Of a stretch of 64,000 nucleotides of DNA, positions 5,760-62,022 are shown piece by piece. Source of the DNA: Alligator mississippiensis. Lineage: Eukaryota; Chordata; Crocodylia; Alligatoridae. The notes beneath the pieces were generated by a model, which searched no databases, was not told the origin of the DNA, and was given only the letters and a program-made list of their open reading frames with translations. Every line of letters begins with the position of its first letter. Position 1 is the first letter of the stretch. Made by a program: the position numbers and the translations under genes. The DNA lies in the NCBI RefSeq assembly GCF_030867095.1, contig NC_081828.1, forward strand, positions 4,594,001 to 4,658,000, in the 5' to 3' direction.

Positions 5760-6581
5760 TAGCAGAGCCCTCCCCCCCACACTCTGGGGGAGGAAGGGAC
5801 CCTGGGGCTCACGTCTCTAAGCCCTGCTGAGGGGGAGCAGCCTCCCCAGGGCCCCAAGGGGGATACTATTGCCAACACAGTCCCTAAGGGATCTCCTCTG
5901 GCTCCCCTCCTGCTGCCCTCCTAGGGGGTGGCAGTGGGGTCCCCCACCCAGTAGGTTGCCCCTGTGCTGGGAGAGAAGCCCTCCTCACAGCCCTCCCTGA
6001 GTGACCGTCCTGTCTTCCCCAGAGTTGGCTCCTGCCCTGGCCACACCCCAAGAGGCTGCAGAAGCACTCCCTCATTCAAGGCGGGGGCCTCAGCAGACCG
6101 GGGGGGTCCAGATGGTGTCCTACCACGCCTCCACCCCTGACCTGGTGGAGACTAGAGACCACCACCTGTCCCATGAGCCAAGCAGGGACCACTAGGCCCC
6201 AGGACCAGGCAGAGGATGGAGGGGAACAGCAGTTCCTACAGAGCCTGCAGACCCCCTAGCCCTGACAGTGCCCAGGGATGAGTTGGTCAAGTTCCTGGAA
6301 AAGGCATGCACTAGGTGCTCCCCAAACCAGGTGCAGCTCACACTGGACTGCTGGGGGGGAGGGGGGGGGGCTCCCACAGCATCCTAGATACCACAAGGGT
6401 GTTGGCAAGGGAACAGAAGGGGCCGAAGCAGGTGCAACACTCGGACCTACACCTGGGTCTGCACCTTCCTCGATGCCCTGTCCACCTATGGGTGGGCAGC
6501 AAGGCTGTGGATGGACCCAAGGCTATGCATTGCCATGTGTGAGGCCCTGGCTAGGTTGCTTCAGCAACTTCCCCCTCAGCC
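5760..6581 (+). mobile_element. Tx1-clade LINE, ORF1 remnant
   Basis: GC-rich sequence directly upstream of the Tx1 ORF2. Degenerate reading in several frames gives an ORF1-like C-terminal part: TVPRDELVKFLEKACTR at about 6265-6315 and an LCIAMCEALARLLQQLPP-like end just before ORF2. Frames are scrambled by indels and homopolymer G runs. The 5' end is uncertain; a change from AT-rich to GC-rich DNA at about 5760 was used. I recognise this by position and overall similarity to Tx1 ORF1 tails, not by a clear domain. Confidence 0.5.
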
Positions 6582-9500
6582 ATGAGGTTACTCGATGTCA
6601 CAACCCTCAACATCCACAGCTACAGGCATGGTCCCTGGAGGAACCAGGTGCTCTCCTTCCTTTGCGGGGGGGGGGGGGTACTCGCTGGTTTTTCTCTAGG
6701 AGACCCGGACAACTTCAGCTGATGAAGCCAGCTGGTGGCTGGAGTGGGAAGATGGGGTTTTCTTTAGCCACCTGATGTCCACCTCTTGTGAGGTGGCCAC
6801 CCTGTTCTCCCTGGGCCTGCAGCCAGAGCTCCTTATCCTTAAGGATGTTGAGATGATGCCAGGCTGCCTGCTGCACATGCAGGTCCAGGTGGAGGGGCTG
6901 GCACTCAACCTGTTGAACATCTATGCCCCCATGCAGGTCCCAGACCCAGTGGAGTTTTTTTCACCAGGCCGCCACTTATCTTGGCACCCTCAACCCTTGC
7001 AAGTGCATGATCCTCAGCGGGGACTTCAGCATGACCCTGGAGGAGCAGGACTGCTTGGGTAGGCAGTGCAGCCAGGCAACTGCGGATGTCCTCTGGGAGA
7101 TCCTGTGGGATCACACCCTGGTGGATGTCTGGCACACCTGTCACCCCGACGGCCCCTCTGCCTTCACCTTTGTGAGGGTGGAGGAGGAGTGGGCGTTCCA
7201 CTCCCAGTTGGACTGCATTTACATGTTCCTGCTCCACTTTGCTCAGGCCAAGTCCTCCAGCATGAGGCTCGCCCCCTCTAGCAATTGCTATCTGGTGTTC
7301 GTCTGGGCCATGCCAGGGTCCGGGCAGTCAGGGTCGGCCTACCGGCACTTCAACAACAGCCTGCTGGAGGAGACAGGCTTCAGAGTGGCTTTCTGGGAGT
7401 TCTGGCTGGCCTGACATGAGCAGCAGCATGCTTTCTCCTCGGCTCAGAGATGGTGGGATGTGGGGAAGGTGTGCATCCAGCACTTCTGCCACAGTTATAC
7501 CCGAGGGCAGAGCCAGCACAGGGAGGCAGCCAGGGAGCAGCTTGAGTGGGAAGTGCTAGAGCTGAAGGGGCACCTGGTCACCGACCTGCAGAACCCATCC
7601 CTCTGCGGGCAGTGCAGGGAGAGGTGGGAGGAGCCAAGAGGCCCGGAAGATTACTACACTCACAGTGCATTTGTCTGCTCACGCACCCAGCTCTTGTGGG
7701 AGATGGACTGCAGCTCCCACTTCTTCTATGCCTTGGAGAGGTGGGGGGGAGGGGCCAGGAAGTATACCGCCTGCCTCTTGGCGGGCAATGGCACCCCCCC
7801 ATGGGCCTGGGAGAGCTGCGAGACCAAGCAAGAGCCTTTTACGGGGGGCTCATCTCCTGGGACCCGACCAATGCTGCAGCCTATCACGTCCTGTGGGAGG
7901 GACTGGTGCAGGTGAGCGCAGGTGACTGGGACCGGCTGGAGGCTCCTCTCACTCTGGCTGAGTTCTTGGCCACCCTCTATCTACTGTCCAGCAACAAAGC
8001 ACTGGGCCCAGATGGGCTGACCATGGAGTTCTACCGGGCCTTCTGGGACCTCATCAGCCTGGACTTCGCTGCAGTGACCCTCATGCCAAAGAAGGGGGAC
8101 CTCCATGACTTGAGAAACTGATGTCCCATGTCCCTAAGGTCCATGTACTACAAAGTGGCAGTGAAGGCCATCTCACTATGCCTGTGGTCCATGCTGGCAG
8201 ATGTGGTCCATCCCGACCACTCATACATGGTGCTGGGGAGATCCATCTTCAACAACCTGTCCCTGGTTCGGGACCTCCTGGAGCTGGCATACCAGGAGGG
8301 CCTGATGTTCTGCCTCCTGTCTCTGGACTAGGAGGAGGTGTTTGACAGGGTGGATCATGGGTACCTCACAGGCACTCTGGGGGCATTTGGCTTTGGACCT
8401 CATTTCATGTGGGCCCTCCAGGTGCTGTACACTTCCGCAGAGTGTTTGGTCAATCTGAGCCAGACCCTGACAGAGCCCATCCTATTCAGGCGAGGGGTGT
8501 ATAAAGGCTACCCAATGTCAGGCCAGCTGTACACCTTGCCTCCAAACATCTTCCTGTGCCTCCTGCGGTGGTAGGGTAGTGCTCTGGGAGCTGGCACTGC
8601 AGCTGGTCCTGTTGGCATATGCCAATAATGTGCTCCTCGCAGTCCAGAACCCAGGCAACCTTGCATGTGTGGTGGCCTGCCAGGTGGTGTACTCGATGGC
8701 CTCCTCCACCCAGGTCAACTGGGTCAAGAGCTCTGGCCTAACTATGGGTGCCGGGTGGCAGGTGGACTCACTCCCCCCTATGCTCCAAGGGATCCATTGG
8801 AGTGCGGGTTCATTGCTCTAGCTGGGGGTGTACCTGTCCCCCACACACCCCTCCCCACTGGAGAATTGGACCCAGCCAAGACCTCCTTAGGGCCTGGGAG
8901 CTGCTCTCCAACTCCTAGTCCCCATTGCAGGTGGCCTGGGGTAACAACCTGCTCGCTGAGCCGTTGCTGTGGAACCCCGCAGCTAGCAGTCTTGGTAGCA
9001 GCGTTACTCTGGGCATGCCAGACGATGGCTTGGGGTGGGGGGGGTCACCCAGCTCAGAGACCTCCTGGACTGCACCAAGCAGAGGCGGCTGAGCCCCACT
9101 GCACTGGCCCAGCGCATGGGTTTGGCCATGGAGTGGGCACCCTACTTGCACCTAGTCCAGGTGAAAGCTGCTCTGCTTGTTGACACTCTTGCCCACTTGA
9201 AGCATGTTCTAACAGAAGGTGGTGCCACCACCCTCTCTGGCTCAGTGGAGCTGCTCATGGGGCCTGCATCAGACTGGCAGGCCCTGCGGCACTCCCTGAT
9301 CCACCATACGAGCTGGCTAGGGGACATATGCCCAGTCTGCTTTTCTACAGCCCACCGGTGCCAGCTCTACACGCTCGTCCACCATACAGTCCACCATGCC
9401 GCCCTCACGTCCTACCCAGACACCAAGTGGTGGGACATCCTGGGCAAGGGTGAGGCCGATGGACCCTGGTGGCAGAGTCTGTATTCCACCCTGATCCCCC

Positions 9501-9973
9501 TTCGCCACTGGGGACCTAGGCTGGCAGCTCCTTCACAGAGCTGTCATGAAGGGCATGTACCTGGTGCGCTTCAATGCACTCCCAACTTGTGGCCATTTTG
9601 TGGGCAGAGGGAGACACTGGCACACCTAGGACTGGAGTGCACCAGGTTGCAGCCCCTGCACCTTCTTCTCCAGGACCTTCTGCTGCAGTTCTGGCTGTAC
9701 TTCTCCCCACACCTTTTTATTTATTCAGTCCCCATCCATGGCCCCACAAAGGCCCAGGACCGCCTGGTCAACCACCTCCTGGCCCTGGCCAAGCTGGCCA
9801 TCTGGCTGACCAGGAAGGAGGTCTTTTTCCTGAGTCTCCTCCATTCCCACATCCAGGCAGAGTACCAGTGGGCAGTAGCTGCCAGCTCTCTGGCTGCTTT
9901 TGAGAGCCAGTGGGTGCTGCCCGATGTCCTCTGCTTGGTGTCTCCGCAGTGTGCATTTGTTTTGTCCCTGTGA
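6582..9973 (+). mobile_element. Tx1-clade LINE ORF2 (endonuclease + reverse transcriptase), decayed
   Basis: ORF2 of an L1/Tx1-superfamily LINE. It starts at ATG 6582 (MRLLDVTTLNIH), followed by apurinic endonuclease pieces: FLQETRTT, NIYAPMQV, LSGDFSMTLEEQD and DVWHTCHPDGPSAFTF (6690-7200). The reverse transcriptase follows: NKALGPDGLTMEFYRAFWD at about 7990, LMPKKGDLHDLRN, SLRSMYYKVAVKAIS, FDRVDHGYLTGTLGAFGFG at about 8340 and GYPMSGQLYTL. The catalytic YADD is YANN here (about 8618-8630), so the enzyme is dead. A cysteine-rich tail (PFCGQRETLAHLGLEC, about 9590) leads to stop 9971-9973. At least three frame shifts (between 6900 and 7550 and between 8575 and 9035) and in-frame stops at 8119-8121, 8329-8331 and 8572-8574 break it. 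Clearly old. Confidence 0.88.
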
Positions 9974-10199
9974 CTCCATGAGCATGTCCTCTTTTCTCAT
10001 TTGTTGTCCCAAGCATTTAGTTGGTGACATTAGTTCCATTGCTGCCCACAGGTGGCAGCCACAAGTTACATAGTGGGCTAGGCCCACAGCTGTGGTCACC
10101 AAATAGGCCCAAGGAATTAGTTGGCAATTTCAGCTCCATCACTACCCACCAGTGGCAGCAAAAGTAAAATAGTGGGGTAAGGCCACACTTGTCATTGTC
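9974..10199 (+). repeat. Tx1 3' UTR with duplicated tail unit
   Basis: The 3' UTR after the Tx1 stop holds two imperfect copies of a unit of about 100 bp (about 10014-10090 and 10117-10203). Each runs 'agttgg..a.ttagctccat..ctgcccac.ggtggcag...agt.gggctagg.c.ca'. A third related unit lies at about 10695-10795 after the next Tx1 piece. Tandem tail units are compatible with how some LINE 3' ends are built. Confidence 0.6.
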
Positions 10200-10795
10200 A
10201 AATAGGTAAAGACGGCGCCTGACATGTGCCCATTCTATGGGCACAGGGAGACCCTGGCATACACGTTCCTGGAGTGTGCCAGGTTGTAGTCCCCGTACTT
10301 CTTCCTTCAGAATCTCCTGCTGAGGTTCTTCCTGCACTTTCCCCCAGACTAGTTTTTTTTTTTTTTTCACTCCACATCCCTGGCCCCACCAAGGCCTGGG
10401 ACCTCCTGGTCAATCTCCTCCTTGTCTTGGCCAAGCTGGCGATTTGTGTGTCACCAGGAAGGAGGCACTGGCCGGGAGGGTACCTAGGAAATGTGGGGCC
10501 ATATTCTTGGGTATGGTCTGGTCCCATCTCTGAGCAGAGTACCACTGGGCACTAGCCACCAGTTGTCTGGCTGCATTTGAGGGTTGGTTGGCACTGCCTG
10601 GGGCACTCTGCTCGGTGTCCCCCAAGGTTGTGCTTGTTTTGAACCTCTGACCCCACTGTCACTTCTCTTTTGCTTTTGTTGTCCCCACTAATTAGTTGGG
10701 ACCATTAGCTCCATTCTCCATCCTTTAGTGGTGGCCTCACATAACTTGGTGGGCCTAGCTCACATGCACTGGTCTCAAATAGGCTTATGGGACAT
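10200..10795 (+). mobile_element. Second Tx1 3'-end fragment (tandem)
   Basis: A second copy of the ORF2 C-terminal region directly follows the first element's tail. It shows CPFYGHRETLAYTFLECARL-like sequence at about 10222-10285, then HIPGPTKAWDLLVNLLLVL and AKLAICVSPGRRH-like reading (10370-10470) and a tail unit at about 10695-10795. It parallels 9580-10090 of the first element. This is either a 5'-truncated insertion next to the older tail or a tandem duplication. Frames are broken. Confidence 0.75.
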
Positions 10796-12403
10796 TTTTT
10801 GGATAACAGGTAACCGCAACCAGGAGGGGGAACTGAAGCCTGGGGCCTAGCCAAGTACACCATGGGGAGTATGTGGAGGGAAACTGCAGGCGGCTGGAAT
10901 GTGGGTCACCAGGTTGACCCTACTGAGGCCCAGAGGTGGCTTTTCAGACACTAGATCAACCCCACCACTGCCAGGGAGACCCAGCCACCTGCCAGCTCTC
11001 ACAAAGTCAGAGGGAATCTTACTAAGAGTAGCTCTGGGCAAGGGTTGGTCTACCTGGACACCAGAGCCCCATGCTGGGGTTCGAGGTTGCCCTGGCCAAG
11101 GAAGGGGAGAAGTGCTAGACCCTACCCACCTGCTGACTACCCTCCCCAGGGCCCTCCACAAGGCCAAGTCACATGCCAGGAGCTGGTCAACTTGGGCCAT
11201 GGCAAAAGGAAACGTTAGAACAGCCAGATGCTCCCCACAAGAGGGTCACCCTGCCCACCTCCCCCCTCTCCCACCAGGTGAGAGGGGGAAGGTGGACACT
11301 TTGGGGTGGGAGATCCCAGTCTGGTGCTGGTTTTCTTGCCTGTTCCTGCTTTCCCTGGTTCTTCCTGCTCCCTTCCTCTCCTTGAGTCCAGGGACATTTC
11401 TGAGCCACCTAGGGAACTGACCTGTGTGTGGTCCCCAACCCTTTAGGGAGGGTAGGGTTGGCAATTGGCAGTGGGAGACTCCGGTCTGGGGCCAGTTCTT
11501 CCATGCAGCCTGACCATCCTGGTGTTCACTCCCCTGCTCCCAGGCTGTGCCTTGAACCCTTTTGCACTTCTCCTCCGATTGACGTGGCAATCCCTTTTCA
11601 GGGATGCCCTTTTGCAGGCCAGCAGTCCCCCTGCTGGTGGTCAGGTAAAGTGGCTACCTTCCCTTTTGTTCTCTTCCTCCAATCAATGTGGCAATTGTGG
11701 TCAGGTTGGGGAGGACCTTTTGTGGGCCAGTGGTCCCCCTGGCTGTGTTCAGGCAAAGCAGCTATCTCCCCTTCCGGTGTCACCCCTCCATTCCAGAAAA
11801 GCCTCTCCCCTTGCTGGGTGAGGGGCTTGGGGGCAGTGGTCTTCCTCTTCTCAGAGGTTTGGCCGAACCCCGCCAAGCAAGACCCAGAGGTCTGACCATG
11901 CCTAGAGATGCCAGTGAGAGTTGGCAGGCCCAGTGGGGAGCCCCATGAAGTTCCCCTCCCCTCCACACTCCCTGTCTCATGGATGCTGTCTTCTTCAACA
12001 GCCACTGTGATGATCGGTGCTGCTGAGGTCCACCTCGCCACCCCACCATGATGCTTGAGGGGGCCTGCCAGGGAAAGCAGGTAGGAAGAGGGTGCCCAGG
12101 CTCTGGCTCATTGCCTGGATTCCCTCCACACTGTCCTTCCCTGTGCAAGGTCCCTGGATCAGCCCCAGGGGGACTGCTACCCCCAGTGGTCCACCCTGCC
12201 ACTGCACTGCAGTCCCCGTGCCTTCCCTGCCCTGGGAGAGCGAGGATGCAGGGGCAGCAGGAGGAGCCAACCCTCACAAAACATTAAGACCCTGATAGAC
12301 TTTGTCTTCCTCTGCAAGGAGTGGAAGGGAAGGGAAGCCTGATCTGTGTCCATCTGTTTCTCAGGCCACTGCCTTCTCATAATCCACAAAATGGGAGGAC
12401 AGC
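10796..12403. repeat. GC-rich repeat-like region with tandem ~107-bp units
   Basis: GC-rich, low-divergence-looking sequence with no host-gene signal. Two adjacent imperfect units of about 107 bp lie at about 11574-11680 and 11681-11788. Both run gt-ggcaat...ccttttg..ggccag..gtccccctg...tcagg.aaag..gct. A further loosely repeated phrase (gtgggaga..c..gtctgg.gc.gtt) occurs at about 11300 and 11470. In one frame 11688-11710 reads QCGNCGQVGE, resembling half of a CCHC knuckle. It may be a 5' UTR/ORF1 part of another Tx1 copy. That assignment is weak. Confidence 0.35.
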
Positions 12404-13531
12404 TGTGTTACTGAAGAGGGTGTAGTCATGAAAGTAGCTGGCTGCAATTCCAATTAGACAGGGCTGCCTCATTGGGAACAGGGGCCAGCTGATCTTTGTA
12501 AGGGCTGGGCCCTGAACAGCAAATACAGCAGTTTGCTGCCAGCAGCCAGAGACACACCACCAACTGAGCTGCTGCTCAGAATACCTTGGAGGTAAGGGAG
12601 GAACTATGGGGGTGGCAGGAATTTCCTGGTCCTGGGTATGACAGAAAACTGCACCCTGCCGGGGAAGGATGGTCTGGTGGGGTAGTTTATGCAACTGCCA
12701 GGCCAGTTGCCTCTCCAGTGAAAGGTGAGTATGGGGTGCCTTCTAAACCCAGCTCCATATCCCTAGTGGGTGGTAGGAGAGAGCAAGGTGAGCCCAGATT
12801 CACTGTGAGTGCCAAGGCAGAGCCCAGGTCCAGTGGAGGGACCTGAGGCAACACCCAGACTCACAGCTGAGACCACTGGAGCCAGGATCAAGGCTCCAGG
12901 AGGGTGGGGCTGTGAACCTTTGTGGAGCTATTAGTGAAGCTCCTGTGCAAAGGGATAAGGTACTATGCTTAGGGAGGACAGGGGATGGGGTTTGGAGCCC
13001 TGATCCTTTACTGCAGACTTGAATCCTGGAGATAGGGCCTGGTGCCCAGAGTTGAGAGGGGGTTGGAGCCCTGGGATTGGATGCAGCTTGAGGCCCTGAA
13101 TTGGTAGAGGCTCCAACGCCCTCAACTCTGGATGCCAGCCCTGAGGGGGAACCAGGCTGGGAGCCCAAGTGAGTGAGTGGCTCGGTGGTAGGCCAGATAA
13201 GTAGGCCAGGTGTCAGGCCATGGAACATCTGCAAAGCACTGCGACTATAAGCTCCAAAGGGGAGTGAGAGTCCCATGTGAGACTCTGGAGCTCGGGTTCC
13301 AGTGTGAGGCATTGGAGGAACATCTGAGAGACATGGGACACGATAAGGGGTGGTCAGAGCCATGTACATAGGCCCTTGTCACCAGGGCAAGTAAACGGGC
13401 AGCCTCCCACGTGCTTAACATCATATAATCATTAACATCAAGGTGTGGCAGACGAGGAAGGTGGGCAGTTAGCCCTAAGACAAGTTGGTGGGCTAACGAT
13501 CAGATTGGTGCCAGGGCACCCACTTGTTACA
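12404..13531 (+). mobile_element. Possible LTR-retrotransposon fossil (LTR-like stretch)
   Basis: A GC-rich stretch beginning TGTGTTAC and ending TTGTTACA. Its first 200 bp resemble the start of the solo-LTR-like element at 20914-21726: an aattag-gggc-gcc phrase, a tgccagcag phrase, then ctgagct followed by ggaggtaagg. The family looks Gypsy-like by this resemblance. It is old and broken. Ends are approximate and no clear target duplication was seen. Confidence 0.3.
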
Positions 13532-14180
13532 AGCTGGAAAGGGGCAGAGGGCTGTAGAAGCTAAATACCAGCCTGCCAGAAGATGAAAATACTCAGCGCA
13601 ATTTTAGAGCGCACTAGGCAGGGTAGAGGACCCTCAGAGACCTGTATCCAAACCAGGCAGTGGTGGGCCAGCATCAAAGAGAGGACCAAAGTCTTCTTCC
13701 AGCAGGTTGGCAAATGATGAGCCTTCTTCCAAAGGCAGCAACATGAGGACCTGACCCGTAAGTTGCAGGCCCTGCACAGGCAGGCAGCAGCAGGCTGGCA
13801 TGTGAGGGATGAGGTGAAGGCCCAGATCGGTACTTGGTACCGGGAGGAGGCCAGGAAAAAGATCTGCCAGGCCATGGCCCCCTGAGTGGAGGAGAGGGAG
13901 GAAAAGTGGTCTGCTTACTTTAGGAAGTTAAAGAAGAGAAGAGAGAAGCTCATGCTATGTCTGAGAGGCAGAGCAGGAGCAGAGCACTGGTTTAAAGAAG
14001 GCATGCTGGAAATAATGGAAAGACAGCCAGAGGCAGATTTGTTTTATAGGTTGAAACGTGCTAAAGGCCTGGAGCTTCTGCTTGGGACCATTCGTTTCAA
14101 GTCTGGCCAATATCCAACTCTGAGCACGGGTGACACAGGCCAGCTACAGGGCTACAACATTCCTACAGGGATAGATTATT
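13532..14180 (+). other. Degenerate coding-like sequence, possible retroelement remnant
   Basis: Directly after the LTR-like stretch there is lysine/arginine/glutamine-rich coding-like sequence (about 13640-13960) with coiled-coil character. It could be an internal part of the neighbouring LTR-type fossil or of a LINE. I cannot decide which. It is old and broken, and it is not a host gene as far as I can see. Confidence 0.3.
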
Positions 14181-16659: not shown

Positions 16660-17002
16660 AAAGGTTACTAAATAACCAGTGTTTATAAAAGCCTCCCTAA
16701 TCCTCTCTACATAGGAGGCTTCTTTTTGTGCTATTCTGAATAAAGCTGGAGAAGAGACGTGGTTATAAGGAAGCTGGGCACTTAAGCAGGAAGAGTCAAG
16801 CTTTTTTATTGCTGGGCTGAGTGTGCTTCCTGCTACATAAATCTCCTCTGGACTGCCCAGCATACGAGAGTCCTTTCCCCCTGGATGAAAGGGAAGGGCC
16901 AATATCTTACCATTGACTAGGCCTTCTCTTTAGGGACAGACACAACAGCAGTGTGAAAGGCAGCAAGAAGACACCTTTTGCTGACCCTCAACCAGCAGGA
17001 CC
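16660..17002 (+). promoter_or_regulatory. Putative promoter and 5' UTR of the CYP4B1-like gene
   Basis: The 340 bp before the CYP4 start codon. Possible TATA-like elements are TTATAAAAG at about 16683-16691 and CTACATAAAT at about 16833-16842. No upstream exon is needed, because exon 1 holds the normal start, and CYP4 genes usually have no separate 5' non-coding exon. The start has a favourable context (accATGG). The transcription start cannot be fixed from sequence alone. Confidence 0.3.
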
Positions 17003-30874
<13,872 letters not shown>

Positions 30875-35215: not shown

Positions 35216-38035
35216 GCGCCAAGCTGAATAAGGGCACCAGGTGGCAGCAGAGTGATTCCCAAATATTATTGAACAGCCTCAACTGAAAAGCTTTGGCCTG
35301 CAGGGAAGGCAGGAACAGCTAAATCCATTTGAATTTTGCCATGTATGACTTCTGGCCATGTCAGAGCCCTCCTTTGTCCTTGCTCAAGTCAGTTATAGAC
35401 TTGAGAGATCCACATTTCAATGGTTCAAACCCTCCTGCCAAGGCAAAGTTTTAATCTCAAGCATTTCGCCAAGGCTAAGTTTTAAAACAACTCTCTCTCT
35501 GCAAAGTTTTATTTAAGAAATCCCACAGAATGAAGCGGAGGAATCGATACTGAGTGGGTGATGTGATGGGCCGGGGACTAAGGTCATACATGGCTCAGAG
35601 AAGAAGCAGAGCGATTTGGAAGGACGAATCAACTCGCGTTCGTGGTCCAGTTGGGGAAATGAAGCACGAGGTTCACCTGTGCATGGCACCAGAGCTATGC
35701 ACTGCTTTTGTGTAGTTGTTCTTTGTCTTGCAGCAATGCCCAGGCATGGGACCAGGCCCCCCTCCTGCTAGATGCTGATTTAGGAACGATTCCTATGCAA
35801 GCGCCATCAGCTGCAGTCTCTCCCCCACCGCCAGCTCTGGTGCTCAGTTCTGTTATTTGGGGATAGCAGGATGAATGCGGTCCCCTGGCAGATCTCTGTT
35901 AGAAAACAATCTGCACTTGCAGCAGGGGCACCTGGTTTCAGAAAGGCACCAGCTAAAAGGATCAAGTTCACTGGCTGCAGAGTAGACTAGGCCACCCAGG
36001 ACCGTCATCATTTGGGCTTTGGATGCTCCAGGTTTCACAACATGAGCAGATAGAGATGCTGTCTCTTCAGCCTGGCTTCTTGTTCCTGCTTCCCATGTCC
36101 GTGTGTCCCGGAGTCCCTGCCTACAGACTCCTGGCACTGCCTGCACTAGATGTGGAGATTGCTCACCGACTATGACCGATTCATACTTTCCAACCCCCTC
36201 TTGCAGTCTCAGCCCTTGGCCTGGATCCTCCTCCGAGTACTTGTTTATCCCTGTACCCCTCCAGGAGCGCACCATCTCTCCACCAAGATGCCTAAAGAAG
36301 GTGAATGGAAGCATTAATCTTGATGGGGGTGTGTTGTCTCTTATGGAAGCCCTCAACCATATTTCACATAGACCATCAAAAAGCCCACTGGCGCTTAACT
36401 CTCAGTGTGGGCTGGGTAATTCATTCCTCGGGAGGTGAAAGACGCTGCATCCTCTTATTGGTCCTTCTTGATGGATTACAAAAATGGTTTACAAATGTGG
36501 CCCATTTCAACAGCATCCCTGCTTCCATGTGAATACGAGTGCACCAGGTAACCAGTTCCTAGCAGTGCTATTGTAAGTCTCGCACTACTTGGCCTCTTTC
36601 CCCAACGCGCCAGCTCCCGGAGTCAGGTGATTAACAAAACAATCTCTCTCTTTGTAAGTAAAGTTTCCAGCTGCTTTGGTTGTGGAGCAAATGAATGTCA
36701 TGTTCAAGCCATAAAGGCTCAGAAAATAGAAGAGGAATAACTAAACCCACGTAGCTTATTTTATTAAAAAAATCTCTTAAATTCTTAGGAAGTCTCCTGA
36801 TTTTTTAACACTGATTTAGCAATATTGTACATCATCACGTGTCCATTGAAATCCACAGCAAAGCTCCCATCTATTGGATGCTGTAGCAACGATCTCATTG
36901 TGCCCTTGCAAAGGTGGATCCATGAAGCCCTCAGGGCATCCCAAGAAGATACAGGTATTGAGAGTATTGGATTGTATTTCCCATCTACCCAGGGAAAAAC
37001 AGACACAGGGAAGTCAGCTATAGGACTTGGGTGTGCAGCTAGTGCTGTGGTGGAGGAGATGGGACAAAGCCCAGCAGGCTGTTTCTGGTCCTTTGCTCTG
37101 TCACTAATAGTTTGCCCTTATGCTGCACCTTATGTTTTTAAAACACTTCCAGGACATTCAGAGTCACTGAATGAATGCATGCTCTTGTAACGCCCCTGTG
37201 GGGTTAAGTATTCTTTGTATACTGCTGCATAACTTCATCATAAAGGTGGGTAAACTGAGGCATGGAGAGACTCAATAAACTGTTCTGACTTCAAGTTGCA
37301 GCCCTTTCAGAACAAGTAGATCTACCTAGAGCACGCTGGCCTCTTTGAAGATGTGTGGTCTCCTGGGATCTAATTGGCACATACAATTCCTTATTTTTCT
37401 CCACTCAAAGAGATTCAGGACACACTTGCTTCCTCCTCATAAGGGTTCAAGTTCAAACCTCAAGGCCATCAGGGCAAATCTAGAATAGTTGCCTTAAAGG
37501 TCATGGTTTAGTTTGGTTTCAGGCACTAAACGCTTCTCTCCCTGTATGTAGCTCCAGTATTGCCAAGCCTATAAGCCAAGAGAAGACGTCTCCAAGCATT
37601 TATTGCTTTTGATTTGAGACTCTTTTCCTTCCTGTGGTATCTTCAGTCAATGCAAGGCTCCCTCTCAGTGGTTAATAGCAAGCTCCTTTTCCTTCCCACC
37701 CATTGTGCTGCTTTGCCATTCGTGGACCTTCCTACACATGACCACTTCTGATTGGTTGGGTGTTTCCAACAGGCTTGCTCTTCAACTTGGCCACTGCCTT
37801 CACGGGACATCCAAGGTGTCCATTCATGGCCTATGCACTATTCCACTGTCTTCTCTCTTGCACATGAGGCTCCATCATCCAATCAAGGAACACGAACACC
37901 ACCATATGATACTGGTGGCTAATTATCCATCTGGAATAGCCTTGACTTAAGACAAACTGAGCAGCCGGAGAGCAACAACTCATGGGGTGCAAATGTTTTG
38001 CCCAAGTTGTTTGGTGCATGGTGACAAAATGGCCA
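35216..38035. other. Intergenic DNA, one MIR-like piece
   Basis: No gene recognised, although several frames exceed 100 codons (35853-36356, 36103-36438, 36825-37190). None has motifs or splice support. About 37190-37290 carries a SINE/MIR-like phrase ('gtgggtaaactgaggcatgg'). Confidence 0.4.
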
Positions 38036-38788: not shown

Positions 38789-38936
38789 CAGTGGTTTTCA
38801 ATCTGTGGTCCACAGACCCCTGGGGGTCCACAGACTATGTCTAAGGAGTCCACAAAAGATGACAATGATCAATCAAATGTACATGAATACCCACACTTAC
38901 AATTCAAAAGAGGTCCAGCACCTACATTCAAAAAAA

Positions 38937-40324: not shown

Positions 40325-40410
40325 CCTCCCACCCCGTGGCTAAGTGGGGCATGAGCCCCTCCCCCCCCCCCCCCGGCCAAGCGGGGCATGAGCCCCCCCT
40401 ACCCCGTGGC
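40325..40410. repeat. GC-rich imperfect tandem repeat
   Basis: Two neighbouring copies of a unit near 'ccccgtggctaagtggggca' followed by 'tgagcccc', then C-rich runs (about 40332-40360 and 40372-40410). Low-complexity DNA. Confidence 0.6.
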
Positions 40411-41099
40411 CTCTCACCCTCCCATCAGTCCCCTACAACTTCCCCGTAGTGGGTCCAATAGCTTGGAGGGGCCAAGCAGCAGCAGCATGAGGTTCACGAG
40501 CAGCAGCATGGTGGGGAGGAATATCACATCCAGTTTTTGCTGCAGAAAAAAACCTGGTGTTTAAATAGCCATATCAGATGCAAAAAAAAGGAGGCGACAT
40601 CACCCCACTGCCGCTTTTGCAGCAAACACCGCTGTTTCCCAGCATGCTTAGCTGGCCAGTGATGCCTTAGGGGCTAGATGTTTTAAATGGTACCCAATCT
40701 GTGGATGCCATCATACTACAGGGGCATGAAACAACCCTTCTCTCTCAAGCCCACATTAAAAGGGCCCATGAAAGCAAAGAAACCCAGCGTGAGAAACAGT
40801 CAGCTCGGCCAGATCGAGATCTCCTCTCAAGGTTTCATCTCAGATGGCTCTCTTTAAGGCCATGACATTTCTGTACTTTTCTCCCGCCTCTCTTTTGACA
40901 ATCACCATGGCTACAAGCGCAGCAAATCAAACAGCATTTTATTAGGGGGGAGGGGGGGCACCATCAATCCAGTTAATGCCACCAACTGGCTCTGCTGGCA
41001 TTAATGGGAGGTGGCAGCGAGACAGTTAGGGAAACCAGTTTGTGTGTTTAGTACCAAATATCCACCCCCCCTCCTCTTTTTTTTTCCCCCTGAATCACA

Positions 41100-41440
41100 A
41101 ACAATGGAGCTAAAAGGTTAGGTATCAGCCTGATAATCGTGAATGACGTGTCATTATTACATGCCACACGTTTATTATCTCCCACTACAGCAGTGTCACA
41201 GGCGGCTGGAGGAGGGCAGATAACCGGGTTCCTTCATGCAGATGGTTTATTATCAGGATGCTCCAGGAGGAGGTTTAAGACAGTTAGTGATGCTGTTTGC
41301 CAGTTAAAGATTAGAGACCCCAGAGAATAATTAACAATCCCAAAACCCAGTTTTCTGCAGGATTCTTATGCTTTCTCTCCCCTCCTCCATCCTCTTTAAT
41401 CTATTCATTCTAGCAGGTGTAATAAAGTGATAAGGAGAGG
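41100..41440. promoter_or_regulatory. Candidate enhancer: GATA/E-box cluster
   Basis: Five WGATAA sites in about 300 bp of unique sequence: TGATAA 41131-41136, TTATCT 41175-41180, AGATAA 41218-41223, TTATCA 41250-41255, TGATAA 41428-41433. Two sit in recognised composite arrangements. CAGGTG (41414-41419) is followed by exactly nine bases and GATA, the TAL1-E2A/LMO2/GATA1 complex site. On the - strand CTG-N7-AGATAA covers 41175-41190. A CTG-N9-AGATAA lies at about 41206-41223. In mammals a TAL1 erythroid enhancer (+40 in mouse, about +51 in human) lies beyond PDZK1IP1 on the side facing the CYP4 genes, which is this interval. Motifs are seen; enhancer function is inferred. Confidence 0.5.
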
Positions 41441-42055
41441 CTCCGGGGATGTTTGTTTGACTGCTGTGGGTATACAAACCAACAATGAATGGTGGTTTAC
41501 TGCTGGCTTTTGCTTGCTTGAACTGAAACCAAAAACTTTTCCAGCCACCTCTGTCATTCAGCCCTAGCCCAAATCCCACCTGGACACAGAGGGCTCTCGT
41601 GGAACCAGCCACGTTTTCCTCTTCTCCCATCAGATCGATCCAGCTCCTTGCCAGAATTGCAAGCAGATGTGAGAACCCAGGGACAGCTTTCTTCCATTTC
41701 TATTCTCTCCCCCACTTCTTCAGTTTGGATTTTTGGTTTCTCTGGGTGACTTCTGGTCCATTGTTATTGCAAAAATTAAAAAAAAAAAAAATGCTTGCTA
41801 CGTGCATCCCAACAGCCTCCCAGGATGCAAACCTTATTTCCATAGAGCAGTCAGAGCCCTGATGAGCTCTCGCGCAATGCAAGCAGCATAAGACAGGATG
41901 CTTCCTCTTAAAGTTGTAGTTGAAATCAAAGGTACCAGTCAGACTATTGCTCCATCTCCCAAATAATGAGACTTATGAACAGGCATTTCTCACATTGATC
42001 TCTCCTAGGTTTTTGTTGCAATGGCCATTTAAATACAATGAGATTTATATTGCCT
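41441..42055. other. Unique intergenic DNA
   Basis: Non-repetitive sequence flanking the GATA cluster. No gene recognised. Confidence 0.35.
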
Positions 42056-42140
42056 CTTGATTACATGGTCTTCAGGGTTGGACTCGATGATCTTCCGAAG
42101 CCCCTTCCAGCCCTAACATCTATGAAATCTATGAAAATCC
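42056..42140 (+). mobile_element. CR1 3' tail
   Basis: Contains 'gggttggactcgatgatctt', 'cccttccagccctaacatct' and the terminal ATGAAATCTATGAAA repeats of CR1. A very short 5'-truncated insertion. Confidence 0.85.
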
Positions 42141-47224: not shown

Positions 47225-50147
47225 GTGGCACCCACAAGGACAGCCCAGCCTGAAGAAGGAGAATATTGGGAACCTGAAAGCCATGGGGAGGCCAGCACTA
47301 CAGAACAGGTAAGAAACAAGAAGGTAAGAAACAATGGGCCCCATGGGACTCGGAGTGGGGGGGCAGCAAAGGCGCCAGTCGCAGGGCTCAAGTGCCTATA
47401 CACTAATGCTAGGAGCATGGGGAACAAGCAGGATGAACTAGCACTCCTGCTTGCACTAAACACCTATGACTTAGTGGGGCTAACAGAGACCTGGTGGGAT
47501 TCATCCCATGACTGGGCGGTACATATTGAGGGCTATAGATTGTACAGAAAGGACAGGGTGGGGAAGAAATGGGGAGGGGTTACGCTCTATGTCAGTGAGC
47601 GATATACATCAACCCTCATCAAGACAGAATCCAAGGATGAGGAAGTAGAAGGATTGTGGGTTAGGCTACATGGGGGGCAAGGAGAAAGGGATTTGGTGGT
47701 AGGGGTCTGCTACAGACCCCCACATCAAGGGGAAGGAAGATTCAGGGCTCCTGAGGCAACTCTCGGAGACCATAACAGCTAAAGAGGCGGTAGTCATGGG
47801 GGACCTAAACTACCCGGACATCTGCTGGGAGACGCAGACAGCAAGGTCCCATCGCTCACGCAGGTTTCTAACCTGTGTACAGGACCTCCACCTGACACAG
47901 GAGGTGCATGGTCCCACTAGGGGGAATGCCATACTGGATCTGGTATTGGCAACGGGAGATGACATGATAGGGGACCTCCAGATCGGTAGCTATCTGGGAG
48001 ACAGTGATCACCTAATAATAGAATTCACCATAAGACGGCGAGTGGGTAAGGTAACTAGTAGGGTGAAAGTGCTAGACTTTAGGAAAGCTGATCTCAGTGC
48101 ACTCAGGCGATTAGTCAAGGACGCACTGCAGAGTAGGAGATTTGAAGGGATGGGTGCCCAAGAAGAGTGGCTGTGCCTTAAGGAAACGATCCTTCGGGCA
48201 CAAAGCAAGACGATCCCCGAGTGAGGCAAAAGAGGGAAAGGGGCCAGGAGGCTTCCCTGGCAGACCAGAGAAATCCAGGGCAGCCTAAGGGCCAAAAGGG
48301 GAGCACATAAAAAGTGGAAACAGGGAGAGATCACCAAAGACGAATATACCTCCTCTGCTCGTGCTTGTAGGGAGGCAGTTAGGCGGGCCAAAGCTGCCAT
48401 GGAGCTGAGGATGGCAACCCAAGTAAAAGACAACAAGAAATTGTTTTTTAGATATATTGGGAGTAAAAGGAAGGCCCAGGGAGGAATAGGACCCCTGCTA
48501 AATGGGCAGAAACAATTGGTGACAGATAGGGGGGACCAGGCTGAACTCCTCAACGAGTTCTTTGCCTCAGTGTCCCTAAGCGAGGGGCACGACAAGTCTC
48601 TCACTGGGGTTGTAGAGAGGCAGCAGCAAGGCGCCAGACTGCCATGCGTAGATCCTGAGGTGGTGCAGAGTCACTTGGAAGAACTGGATGCCTTTAAGTC
48701 GGCAGGCCCGGATGGGCTCCATCCGAGGGTCCTGAAGGCACTGGCCGACGTCATTGCAGAGCCACTGGTGGGAATATTTGAACGCTCGTGGCACACGGGC
48801 CAAGTCCCGGAGAACTGGAAAAGGGCTAACGTGGTCCTCATTTTCAAAAAGGGGAGGAAGGAGGACCTGGGCAACTATAGGCCGGTCAGTCTCACCTCCA
48901 TCCTTGGCAAAGTCTTTGAAAAAATTATCAAGGCTCACATTTGTGAGAGCCCGGCAGGACAAATTATGCTGAGGGGAAACCAGCACGGGTTCGTGGCAGG
49001 CAGATCGTGCCTGACCAATCTAGTCTCTTTCTATGACCAGGTTACGAAACGCCTGGACACAGGAGGAGGGGTGGATGTCATATACTTAGACTTCAGGAAG
49101 GCCTTTGATACGGTATCCCACCCCATACTGGTGAACAAGTTAAGAGGCTGTGACGTGGATGACTACACAGTCCGGTGGGTGGTGAATTGGCTAGAGGGTC
49201 GCACCCAAAGAGTCGTGGTGGATGGGTCGGTTTCGACCTGGAAGGGTGTGGGCAGTGGGGTCCCGCAGGGCTCGGTCCTTGGACCGATACTCTTTAATGT
49301 CTTCATCAGCGACTTGGACGAGGGAGTCAAATGTACTCTGTCCAAGTTTGCAGATGACACAAAGCTATGGGGAGAAGTGGACACGCCGGAGGGCAGGGAA
49401 CAGCTGCAGGCAGACCTGGATAGGCTGGACAAGTGGGCAGAAAACAACAGGATGCAGTTCAACAAGGAGAAATGCAAAGTGCTGCACCTAGGGAGGAAAA
49501 ATGTCCAGCACACCTACAGCCTAGGGAATGACCTGCTGGGTGGCACAGAGGTGGAAAGGGATCTTGGAGTCCTAGTGGACTCCAAGATGAACATGAGCCG
49601 GCAGTGTGACGAAGCCATCAGAAAAGCCAATGACACTTTATCGTGCATCAGCAGATGTATGACGAACAGGTCCAAGGAGGTGATACTTCCCCTCTATCGG
49701 GCGCTGGTCAGACCGCAGTTGGAGTACTGCGTGCAATTTTGGACGCCACACTTCAAGAGGGATGCGGATAACCTGGAGAGGGTCCAGAGAAGGGCCACTC
49801 GTATGGTTAAGGGCTTGCAGACCAAGCCCTACGAGGAGAGACTAGAGAACCTGGACCTTTTCAGCCTCCGCAAGAGAAGGTTGAGAGGCGACCTTGTGGC
49901 TGCCTATAAGTTCATCACGGGGGCACAGAAGGGAATTGGTGAGGTTTTATTCACCAAGGCGCCCCCGGGGGTTACAAGAAACAATGGCCACAAGCTGGCA
50001 GAGAGCAGATTTGGACTGGACATTAGGAAGAACTTCACAGTTTGAGTGGCCAAGGTCTGGAACGGGCTCCCAAGGGAGGTGGTGCTCTCCCCTACCCTGG
50101 GGGTCTTCAAGAGGAGGTTAGATAGGCATCTAGCTGGGGTCATCTAG
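47225..50147 (+). pseudogene. CR1 ORF2 (endonuclease + reverse transcriptase), nearly intact
   Basis: The LINE replicase. The endonuclease is read first: LKCLYTNARSMGNKQDELAL at about 47388, LTETWWDSSHDW, YRLYRKDRVGKK and VVGVCYRPP at about 47700. After one frame shift (47740-47795) come MGDLNYPDICWETQ at 47796 and SDHLIIEF at about 48003. The reverse transcriptase follows in the same frame: SAGPDGLHPRVLKALADVI, ENWKRANVVLIFKKGRKEDL, NYRPVSLTSILGKVFEKIIK, YLDFRKAFDTVSHP, GVPQGSVLGPILFNVFISDL and FADDTKLWG with both catalytic Asp residues at about 49350. The tail runs to VWNGLPREVV and a stop at about 50145. Only two in-frame TGA codons (48222-48224; 50043-50045, probably a CpG change of CGA) and the one shift break it. 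48399-50045 is open for 548 codons. Confidence 0.93.
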
Positions 50148-56744: not shown

Positions 56745-56910
56745 GCGACTCATTTAGTCAGTATCCTCATAAGGTCATTATTATCCCCATTTTACAGATG
56801 GGCAAATTGAGGCATTGAACCAATTGCTTAACTTTTTTATGTTGAACAAGTCAGTGCCAGGGCTGACCCCAGGAATCCTACCCTCTTGCCCTTTGCTCTA
56901 GCCATGAGAC
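56745..56910 (+). repeat. MIR SINE
   Basis: Contains 'tcattattatccccatttta', 'cagatgggcaaattgaggca', then a decayed 'agtcagtgccagggctgacc' and 'aggaatcctaccctcttgcc'. Clear MIR order, + orientation. Confidence 0.85.
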
Positions 56911-60509: not shown

Positions 60510-61356
60510 ATTTAAGAATAATTCTCTTTATTGCTCACAAGGAAAAAATATGTACAAAGGAGCAGATTCAATCACTTGGCTATTTTTGTTGTTGACCAGC
60601 AGAGAGAAATGACACGATTGCCAACAAGAGGATGCACAGATCTTTCAATCAATAAATAACTAGCTCCAAGGGTGGGGAATAAATGTGTATGGAAAAGACA
60701 CCATTTGCTCATTTGGTTCAGATATCGAGATAGTCTTTCTATGGATAGCCAATTAGCCCAGCCACAGATGATAACAAGGGATGGCAGGGGGGAAGCAAGG
60801 CTGGGGTGGGTTCATACACCTGGGGCTGGGTAGAAACCTCCAGAGTGTATGCCACAGGAACCAGACCGTAATTGCAAAACTGACTGGTCTTTGCTTCTAG
60901 TTGTGAAGGGGTGGGCATGTGGCAGCCATGCCACTTCTCCCTCTGGGTTGTACTTGAGGTGCTGGCTGTTATCTTGGGAGCAGGTTTAGCAAAGTCTCCT
61001 TCCACACCTCGCTGCACCTGGAGGGAAGAGGAGAGAAGGAGCCAAAGCTAGCTAATGTCCCTCCCACCCAGGCACTGGTTGCAGCAAGGATGGTGTCCCA
61101 TCCGGAGGCTGCCCAACTATTCCTGTCACTGGCAGGCAGCAGGACTCCCAACGAGGTCCATGCCAAGTCGTCCCGTGTAGCAGAGGCTTCACGCAAGGAA
61201 GAGAAAGAGAAAGGGGCTATGTGGATGGTTCATTGGAGTGATCTTCATCTGCTGGAAGGGTGGTTGGATCCAGGGACGAGAGCTCCTCGCAACGAGAGGA
61301 GGAGAGTTAGGGTTTGCTGGAGGTGGTGATGATGGAGCGATCCTCAAAGGCAGTTG
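60510..61356 (-). terminator. PDZK1IP1 3' UTR and poly(A) signal
   Basis: The - strand 3' UTR runs from the TAG at 61357-61359 to a canonical AATAAA (TTTATT on + at 60527-60532), about 830 nt. Cleavage is expected near 60505-60515. The length is inferred from this first clear signal. Confidence 0.6.
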
Positions 61357-61429
61357 CTACATCGCGGTGGTGAGGACTTTCTCGTCGTATTCAATGACGT
61401 TTTCATAGGCACGCTCATTTTCTCGGGAT
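61357..61429 (-). CDS. PDZK1IP1: PDZK1IP1 (MAP17) last coding exon
   Basis: The C-terminal end of PDZK1-interacting protein 1, a small single-pass membrane protein of epithelia. It binds PDZK1 and other PDZ scaffolds and acts with apical transporters such as SGLT2. Acceptor tttcag (- strand), then (R)SRENERAYENVIEYDEKV LTTAM and TAG at 61357-61359. Human MAP17 has SSEHENAYENV...STPM at the same place. AYENV is kept, and TTAM fits the class I PDZ ligand (S/T-x-hydrophobic). The first base completes the Arg codon split from the previous exon. Confidence 0.92.
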
Positions 61430-61900
61430 CTGAAATATTAGGGAACAGGGGTCAGTTATGAAGCCTGCGAGCAAAGGTCTTCCAGTCAGGTCTATAACTG
61501 AATGGGGCCCAGTTTAAACAGAGAGAGGGGGGCGACCCATACTAGTCTGTGATGAACTGGCCGGCGTGCAGAAGAACGACTGCTGTCTCTTCATAATTTC
61601 ATGGGGGCTGGAAGAGACCTTGCTTGGCTGGTTTTCATGGGTCATCGTACCTGTACTGCTGGATTCTGGAAGCCGGAGTCAGGACTTTCCTATTGCCCTA
61701 TTTAGGGTAGATCTTTAGGAAAGGTAGAGGAAAAGTCTCAGCTCCATCCATGCATGGACTAATACTGCCAGCAATGCTAGCATTTCATTGGCAATTACTG
61801 ATGCAAGAGGAAGCTTAAAGGCCCTAATCTTGCCAAGACTGATGTGCCCATTTTACTTTGATGCTTCACTGTGCTTAAAGTTCAGCAGGGCTGTAAGTGC

Positions 61901-62022
61901 TGCCTACAGCACCCGGGATTCAAGGCTGGGCTCCTATCCAAGTACTAGTCAAACCCGTGACTGTTTAGCTTCCAAAATCAGATAAGTTGTAGGTGCGCAT
62001 TCAGTCTCATATGGCCATATGG
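61901..62022 (-). pseudogene. 5S rRNA-like sequence (pseudogene or 5S-derived SINE head)
   Basis: In the intron between the two PDZK1IP1 exons. The + strand matches the reverse complement of vertebrate 5S rRNA over about 121 nt: 'gcctacagcacccgggattc', 'tcctatccaagtactagtca', 'actgtttagcttccaaaatc' and 'tatggccatatgg'. Divergence is about 25-30% by eye, including in the internal promoter region, so a working gene is unlikely. The full-length match suggests a 5S retropseudogene or the head of an AmnSINE/SINE3-type element. Confidence 0.75.

Follow-up and report, generated by a model that had tools for sequence, protein, structure and literature searches.

TAL1, a master gene of haematopoiesis, raises the question of how its switches changed as mammals and other vertebrates diverged. 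Here we describe a cluster of GATA and E-box motifs in a 64,000-nucleotide stretch of the Alligator mississippiensis genome (contig NC_081828.1, positions 4,594,001 to 4,658,000; hereafter the window) and compare it with the distal erythroid enhancer of mammalian TAL1, which is termed +40 in mouse and +51 in human. The human element sits only a few kilobases past MAP17 (PDZK1IP1). PMC2816701 places it between MAP17 and CYP4A22, describes in it three conserved GATA sites, of which one belongs to a GATA/E-box composite, and reports that in both K562 and HEL it is bound by the SCL erythroid complex. The mouse +40 element is, in addition, a midbrain/hindbrain element (PMC12431775).

Both enhancers are flanked by CTCF sites on the side of the CYP4 genes. 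In mouse, a CTCF insulator at +45, beyond +40 and 5 kb CYP-ward of it, separates Scl/Map17 from Cyp4x1 (PMC3291548). In human, CTCF is found at +53 and +57, the boundary lies 6 kb CYP-ward, and the histone mark H3K27me3 rises towards the CYP4 genes (PMC2816701); the human sites are reported to point towards TAL1, and +53/+57 to loop with a site at -31 that overlaps an exon of STIL (PMC7102946).

The motif grammar is illustrated by a mouse study using chromatin immunoprecipitation with exonuclease digestion (ChIP-exo). According to its abstract, WGATAA is preceded, at a spacing of 7 or 8 bp, by a partial E-box in about three-quarters of some 4,000 locations co-bound by GATA1 and TAL1; in its methods, 1,650 of 2,997 co-occupied WGATAA sites have TG at a spacing of 7-9 bp (PMC4702602). 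Among the matches listed in the open-licence literature, we found no report of a reptile or bird counterpart of +40/+51, a result that does not establish its absence from print.

We consider that the alligator cluster, at 41.1-41.44 kb of the window, is most readily understood as an enhancer that is bound by TAL1 and GATA factors and serves the TAL1-PDZK1IP1 domain, being in position and in grammar a counterpart of +40/+51. This is the likeliest single reading, to which we assign a probability of roughly 0.45.

Motif composition of the cluster

The candidate enhancer core (41100-41440) packs five WGATAA sites into 303 bp (41131-41433), and three of the five have TG located 7 or 8 bp upstream, thus forming TG[N7-8]WGATAA compound motifs. 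An earlier note on this DNA had listed five WGATAA sites in about 300 bp, a CAGGTG-N9-GATA, in which it recognized the spacing selected by the TAL1/E2A/LMO2/GATA1 complex, a minus-strand CTG-N7-AGATAA and a CTG-N9-AGATAA. Our motif scan found every one of these sequences, with the strands and coordinates given in Table 1, and the grammar fits the GATA1/TAL1 compound motif with one more compound site (41250-41267) than the note had included. Only the CTG-N9-AGATAA fell short: it is there, on the plus strand, but we rejected it as a good composite because N9 is outside the 7-8 bp spacing that PMC4702602 describes as enriched. CAGGTG-N9-GATA and CTG-N9-WGATAA each occur once in the window, within the cluster, and CTG-N7-WGATAA occurs three times, one of them being the cluster site.

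The sites at 41175(-), 41250(-) and 41428(+) agree with the compound motif as PMC4702602 presents it; a full E-box is found only at 41428 and reads CAGGTG, as opposed to the CAKCTG bias reported there. Compared with +40/+51, the cluster likewise combines several GATA sites with GATA/E-box composites, one of which has a full CAGGTG; it differs in having five GATA sites and three compound motifs, against three conserved GATA sites with one composite among them in human +51.

We rejected the idea that the window as a whole is GATA-rich (61 WGATAA observed, 57.5 expected). The 264-kb domain around it contains 301 WGATAA and 47 compound motifs, but the cluster is the sole 303-bp stretch in which five WGATAA come together (three other places reach four) and the sole one with two or more compound motifs. 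The share of sites with TG at the 7-8 bp spacing was 3/5 in the cluster and 44/296 in the rest of the domain (binomial P 0.026). When the window was dinucleotide-shuffled in 2-kb blocks, at least five WGATAA within 303 bp arose in 17 of 1000 copies, at least three TG[N7-8]WGATAA in 6, and both features, not necessarily in the same place, in 1. A stricter, first-order Markov (Markov-1) resampling, demanding five WGATAA and three compound motifs in the same 303 bp, gave no such joint cluster in 2000 copies of the 29.6-kb CYP4-PDZK1IP1 interval. Within this interval, the clustering is beyond chance.

The earlier note had also spoken of unique DNA. In a search of the 2.35-Gb assembly (195 contigs), the segments 40400-41000, 41000-41500 and 41500-42100 each matched only themselves; since the search skips simple repeats and very common words, a single copy is supported, not proven. 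The rest of the CYP4-PDZK1IP1 interval has two other compound motifs, both single, and no comparable cluster. One of the two, at 48925, was rejected as an alternative site, as it lies within the reading frame of a long interspersed element (LINE) and its 15-mer recurs identically at 117237. The LINE itself (48225-50045, plus strand; CR1-like by eye) has a 606-aa open frame with a reverse transcriptase domain. A CANNTG-N9-GATA at 56782 was also discarded, as it reads GGGGATA rather than WGATAA; by eye, the sequence around it looks like a MIR-type short interspersed element (SINE).

As a control for the grammar we used a presumed GATA2 zinc-finger intron of the same genome (L034, C12:19690601-19695000, minus strand), picked by 95% identity to a zinc-finger fragment. 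The mammalian GATA2 intronic +9.5 composite reads TG-N8-AGATAA. The alligator intron contains TATCTG-N8-AGATAAGGAAAC, with a degenerate E-box, which is possibly its counterpart; the resemblance to +9.5 suggests that this lineage makes use of the TG-N8-WGATAA grammar. Genome-wide, a +9.5 pattern with four wildcards had no match; when as many as 3 mismatches were allowed, the full pattern had 25 matches, none of them at the GATA2 locus. The control shares with the cluster the TG-N8-WGATAA grammar and is unlike it in its architecture, since +9.5 consists of one composite with an ETS-like GGAA after it and the cluster contains multiple GATA sites. The intron has just two compound motifs, about 1.7 kb apart, and would fail a clustering test, so this control cannot serve to validate clustering as an indication of function.

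Gene order around the cluster

The order along the alligator contig is CYP4B1-like(+), cluster, PDZK1IP1(-), TAL1(-), CMPK1(+). The cluster thus has the CYP4 gene on one side, about 10 kb away, and PDZK1IP1 on the other, with TAL1 beyond PDZK1IP1; the most distant TAL1 coding match that we found is about 99 kb from the cluster. The earlier note had placed it in the same interval as the mammalian enhancer; the synteny bears this out, while the position within the interval does not match exactly, with the poly(A) signal of PDZK1IP1, near 60532, some 19 kb away from the cluster.

Table 1. Coordinates of the cluster, its motifs and the flanking features in the window
Feature	Position	Strand	Basis or remark
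GATA/E-box cluster, candidate enhancer core	41100..41440		five WGATAA, three compound motifs
WGATAA site 1 (TGATAA)	41131..41136	+	without compound motif
Compound motif CTG-N7-AGATAA, CTGTAGTGGGAGATAA	41175..41190	-	motif scan
CTG-N9-AGATAA (WGATAA at 41218)	41206..41223	+	spacing outside preferred 7-8
Compound motif TG-N8-TGATAA, CCTGGAGCATCCTGATAA	41250..41267	-	motif scan; overlooked by the earlier note
Full E-box composite CAGGTG-N8-TGATAA (= CAGGTG-N9-GATA, 41414-41432; WGATAA at 41428)	41414..41433	+	motif scan
CTCF-like motif, possible boundary	35231..35249	+	score 17.0; 5.9 kb CYP-ward, oriented towards TAL1
CYP4B1-like cytochrome P450 gene	24785..30874	+	Pfam p450 exons; frame end at 30874
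PDZK1IP1 (MAP17) last coding exon	61360..61434	-	PDB chain match, C-terminal 25 residues, E 0.044; Pfam MAP17 below cut-off

The P450 assignment relies on three exons above the Pfam cut-off (27141-27467, 29803-30213 and 30563-30871) and a weaker one, below it, at 24785; the last exon gave a strong PDB match to CYP4B1 only (E 1.2e-18; next 3.8e-5). The remaining genes lie beyond the window, and we give them here in its numbering. The transmembrane exon of PDZK1IP1 (67276-67181) is 87.5% identical to the probe used, and the bHLH region of TAL1 (131932-131729, minus strand) is 97% identical to a human fragment. Further TAL1 matches near 138.5 and 140.6 kb bring its exons to 131.7-140.7 kb, and CMPK1 extends over 184.9-198.8 kb on the plus strand.

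Flanking sites and rival explanations

Using an approximate CTCF matrix, we could identify 35231(+) as the best CTCF-like site of the CYP4-PDZK1IP1 interval. Its distance from the cluster resembles the 5-6 kb CYP-ward CTCF position of +40/+51, and a score of at least 17 at 4-7 kb CYP-ward, on either strand, was reached in 2 of 200 resamplings. The strongest CTCF-like site of the whole 264-kb domain is at 100895 (-), between PDZK1IP1 and TAL1, in the opposite orientation.

Several observations weigh against an enhancer of TAL1 at this position. The approximately 19 kb separating the cluster from the PDZK1IP1 poly(A) signal, a departure from +40/+51, include LINE repeats. A CTCF-like score of 17.0 is nothing unusual in 64 kb, where the best score had a median of 16.15 over 100 resamplings. 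Unlike in human, we found no counterpart of the +53 or -31 CTCF sites: 2 kb CYP-ward there is no strong equivalent of +53 (best 12.0, at 38811), and no CTCF-like site scoring at least 15.5 occurs between TAL1 and CMPK1 (140.7-185 kb; best 14.3, plus strand). Moreover, a loop between 35231(+) and 100895(-) could hold PDZK1IP1 and the cluster together and isolate them from TAL1. Scanning 40850-41700 with consensus motifs, we detected no strict KLF1 (CCMCRCCC), RUNX, EBF or AP-1/NF-E2 match; loose CCNCNCCC matches at 40946, 40948 and 41062 are all outside the core, as is the sole ETS-like match, at 41615. Finally, the resampled sequence predicts roughly one joint cluster per 40 Mb, hence dozens in 2.35 Gb. 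For one arrangement of two compound motifs the whole genome has 755+717 matches, versus 299+272 for the reversed pattern, with a repeat family making up many of the paired compound-motif places among the matches listed.

These last counts bear directly on the possibility that short degenerate motifs have simply come together, without function, in moderately AT-rich DNA. The joint cluster appeared in 2 of 300 resampled copies of the 264-kb domain (five WGATAA in 58 and three compound motifs in 17, when taken singly), so that dozens would arise by chance per genome and location carries much of the weight. Compound-motif pairs are common genome-wide, and the feature was picked for the earlier note from a scan of many, which makes all these probabilities optimistic. 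On the other hand, the cluster falls in the only interval in which one would look for such an element, and none of the 2000 resampled intervals matched it; the TG[N7-8] criterion, too, came after the finding had been written down and added a third site. Weighing both sides, we regard a functionless cluster as rather unlikely, though to be taken seriously.

The cluster might instead be an enhancer serving another tissue: either GATA4/6 with HNF1, in gut or kidney, driving PDZK1IP1 or CYP4, or a GATA2/3-TAL1 element of midbrain/hindbrain. The cluster contains an HNF1-like site with 2 mismatches (41323-41335) overlapping a TAATTA core; the window has 4 such sites, 1.27 being expected, and at least 4 were seen in 4 of 100 shuffles. 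It also contains GTTTATTATC in two identical copies, at 41170-41179 and 41245-41254, 75 bp apart and each overlapping a compound GATA site, which are possibly HOX- or FOX-type partner sites. Together, the HNF1-like site and the GTTTATTATC repeats make a gut, kidney or neural enhancer possible, as do the lack of a strict KLF1 match in the scanned 40850-41700, the orientation of 35231(+) and 100895(-), which would group the cluster with PDZK1IP1, and the mouse precedent, since +40 drives expression in midbrain/hindbrain as well and is open in GABAergic precursors (PMC12431775). Three TAL1-type spacings would, however, not be expected of GATA4/6-HNF1 elements, and we deem an activity in another tissue quite improbable. 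A further option, which overlaps with the reading that we prefer because the latter needs no orthology, is that an erythroid element with the same function evolved separately in the same interval and is non-orthologous to +40/+51. The different position within the interval would be in keeping with this, but common origin is a simpler explanation for the shared synteny, grammar and CTCF-like flank, and separate evolution appears distinctly unlikely.

To return to the TAL1/GATA-bound enhancer, what we observe are the motifs, their spacing and clustering, the lack of a second copy among the genome matches, and the gene order; binding, activity, target gene and orthology are inferred. The 41.1-41.44 kb segment would be a distal cis-regulatory module of the TAL1-PDZK1IP1 domain, and through its three compound motifs and the other two GATA sites it might recruit a TAL1/E-protein-LMO2-LDB1-GATA1/2 complex in erythroid or haematopoietic cells. 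Looping mediated by LDB1 could then connect the module with either the TAL1 promoter or PDZK1IP1, or with both, in which case it would act like the mammalian TAL1 erythroid enhancer of the same syntenic interval. Orthology of the cluster to mouse +40 and human +51 is a separate matter and, in our judgment, doubtful. In a speculative scenario, the amniote ancestor already had the distal erythroid enhancer of TAL1 together with a CTCF boundary on its CYP side. The alligator would then have a denser version with three composites, some 100 kb away from the coding exons of TAL1, that was kept by motif grammar and not as alignable sequence.

If the syntenic slot holds a true counterpart outside mammals, the distal erythroid enhancer would go back to the amniote ancestor, and the locus would be a test of whether motif spacing can preserve enhancers whose sequence has diverged. 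A chance cluster would instead show how far motif clusters can mislead when comparison is lacking.

Genome-wide motif counts and other features of the window

CAGGTG-N8-WGATAA occurs 440+461 times genome-wide (reversed, 140+134), and CAGGTG-N12-WGATAA 330+320 times (reversed, 164+148), so that the excess of N8 over N12 is weak; repeats such as CAGGTGACCTGGCCAGATAA recur among the CAGGTG-N8-WGATAA matches listed. We also came across an unclassified repeat of about 0.7 kb which, in the copy examined, has two TG-N8-WGATAA about 80 bp apart. Two copies (L035 1306-2012 and L037 1438-2142) are 90% identical, and a third locus, L036, is a 99.4% duplicate of L035, flanks included. The repeat thus spreads paired TAL1/GATA1-type sites and inflates genome-wide counts.

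Elsewhere in the window, at 16985-17239, a frame resembling the N-terminal part of the CYP4 gene was recognized by eye only, with no Pfam match. The region at about 6000-14000 is GC-rich (53-61% per kb) and contains several long open frames, some of them reverse-transcriptase-like by eye; a 324-aa frame at 8999 had no Pfam match above the cut-off. A known RNA family was rejected as an explanation of the cluster, since at gathering score Rfam matched only one place in the window, a 5S rRNA at 61901-62022 (-) in a PDZK1IP1 intron (39.3 bits, gathering score 38), which is possibly a 5S-derived SINE.
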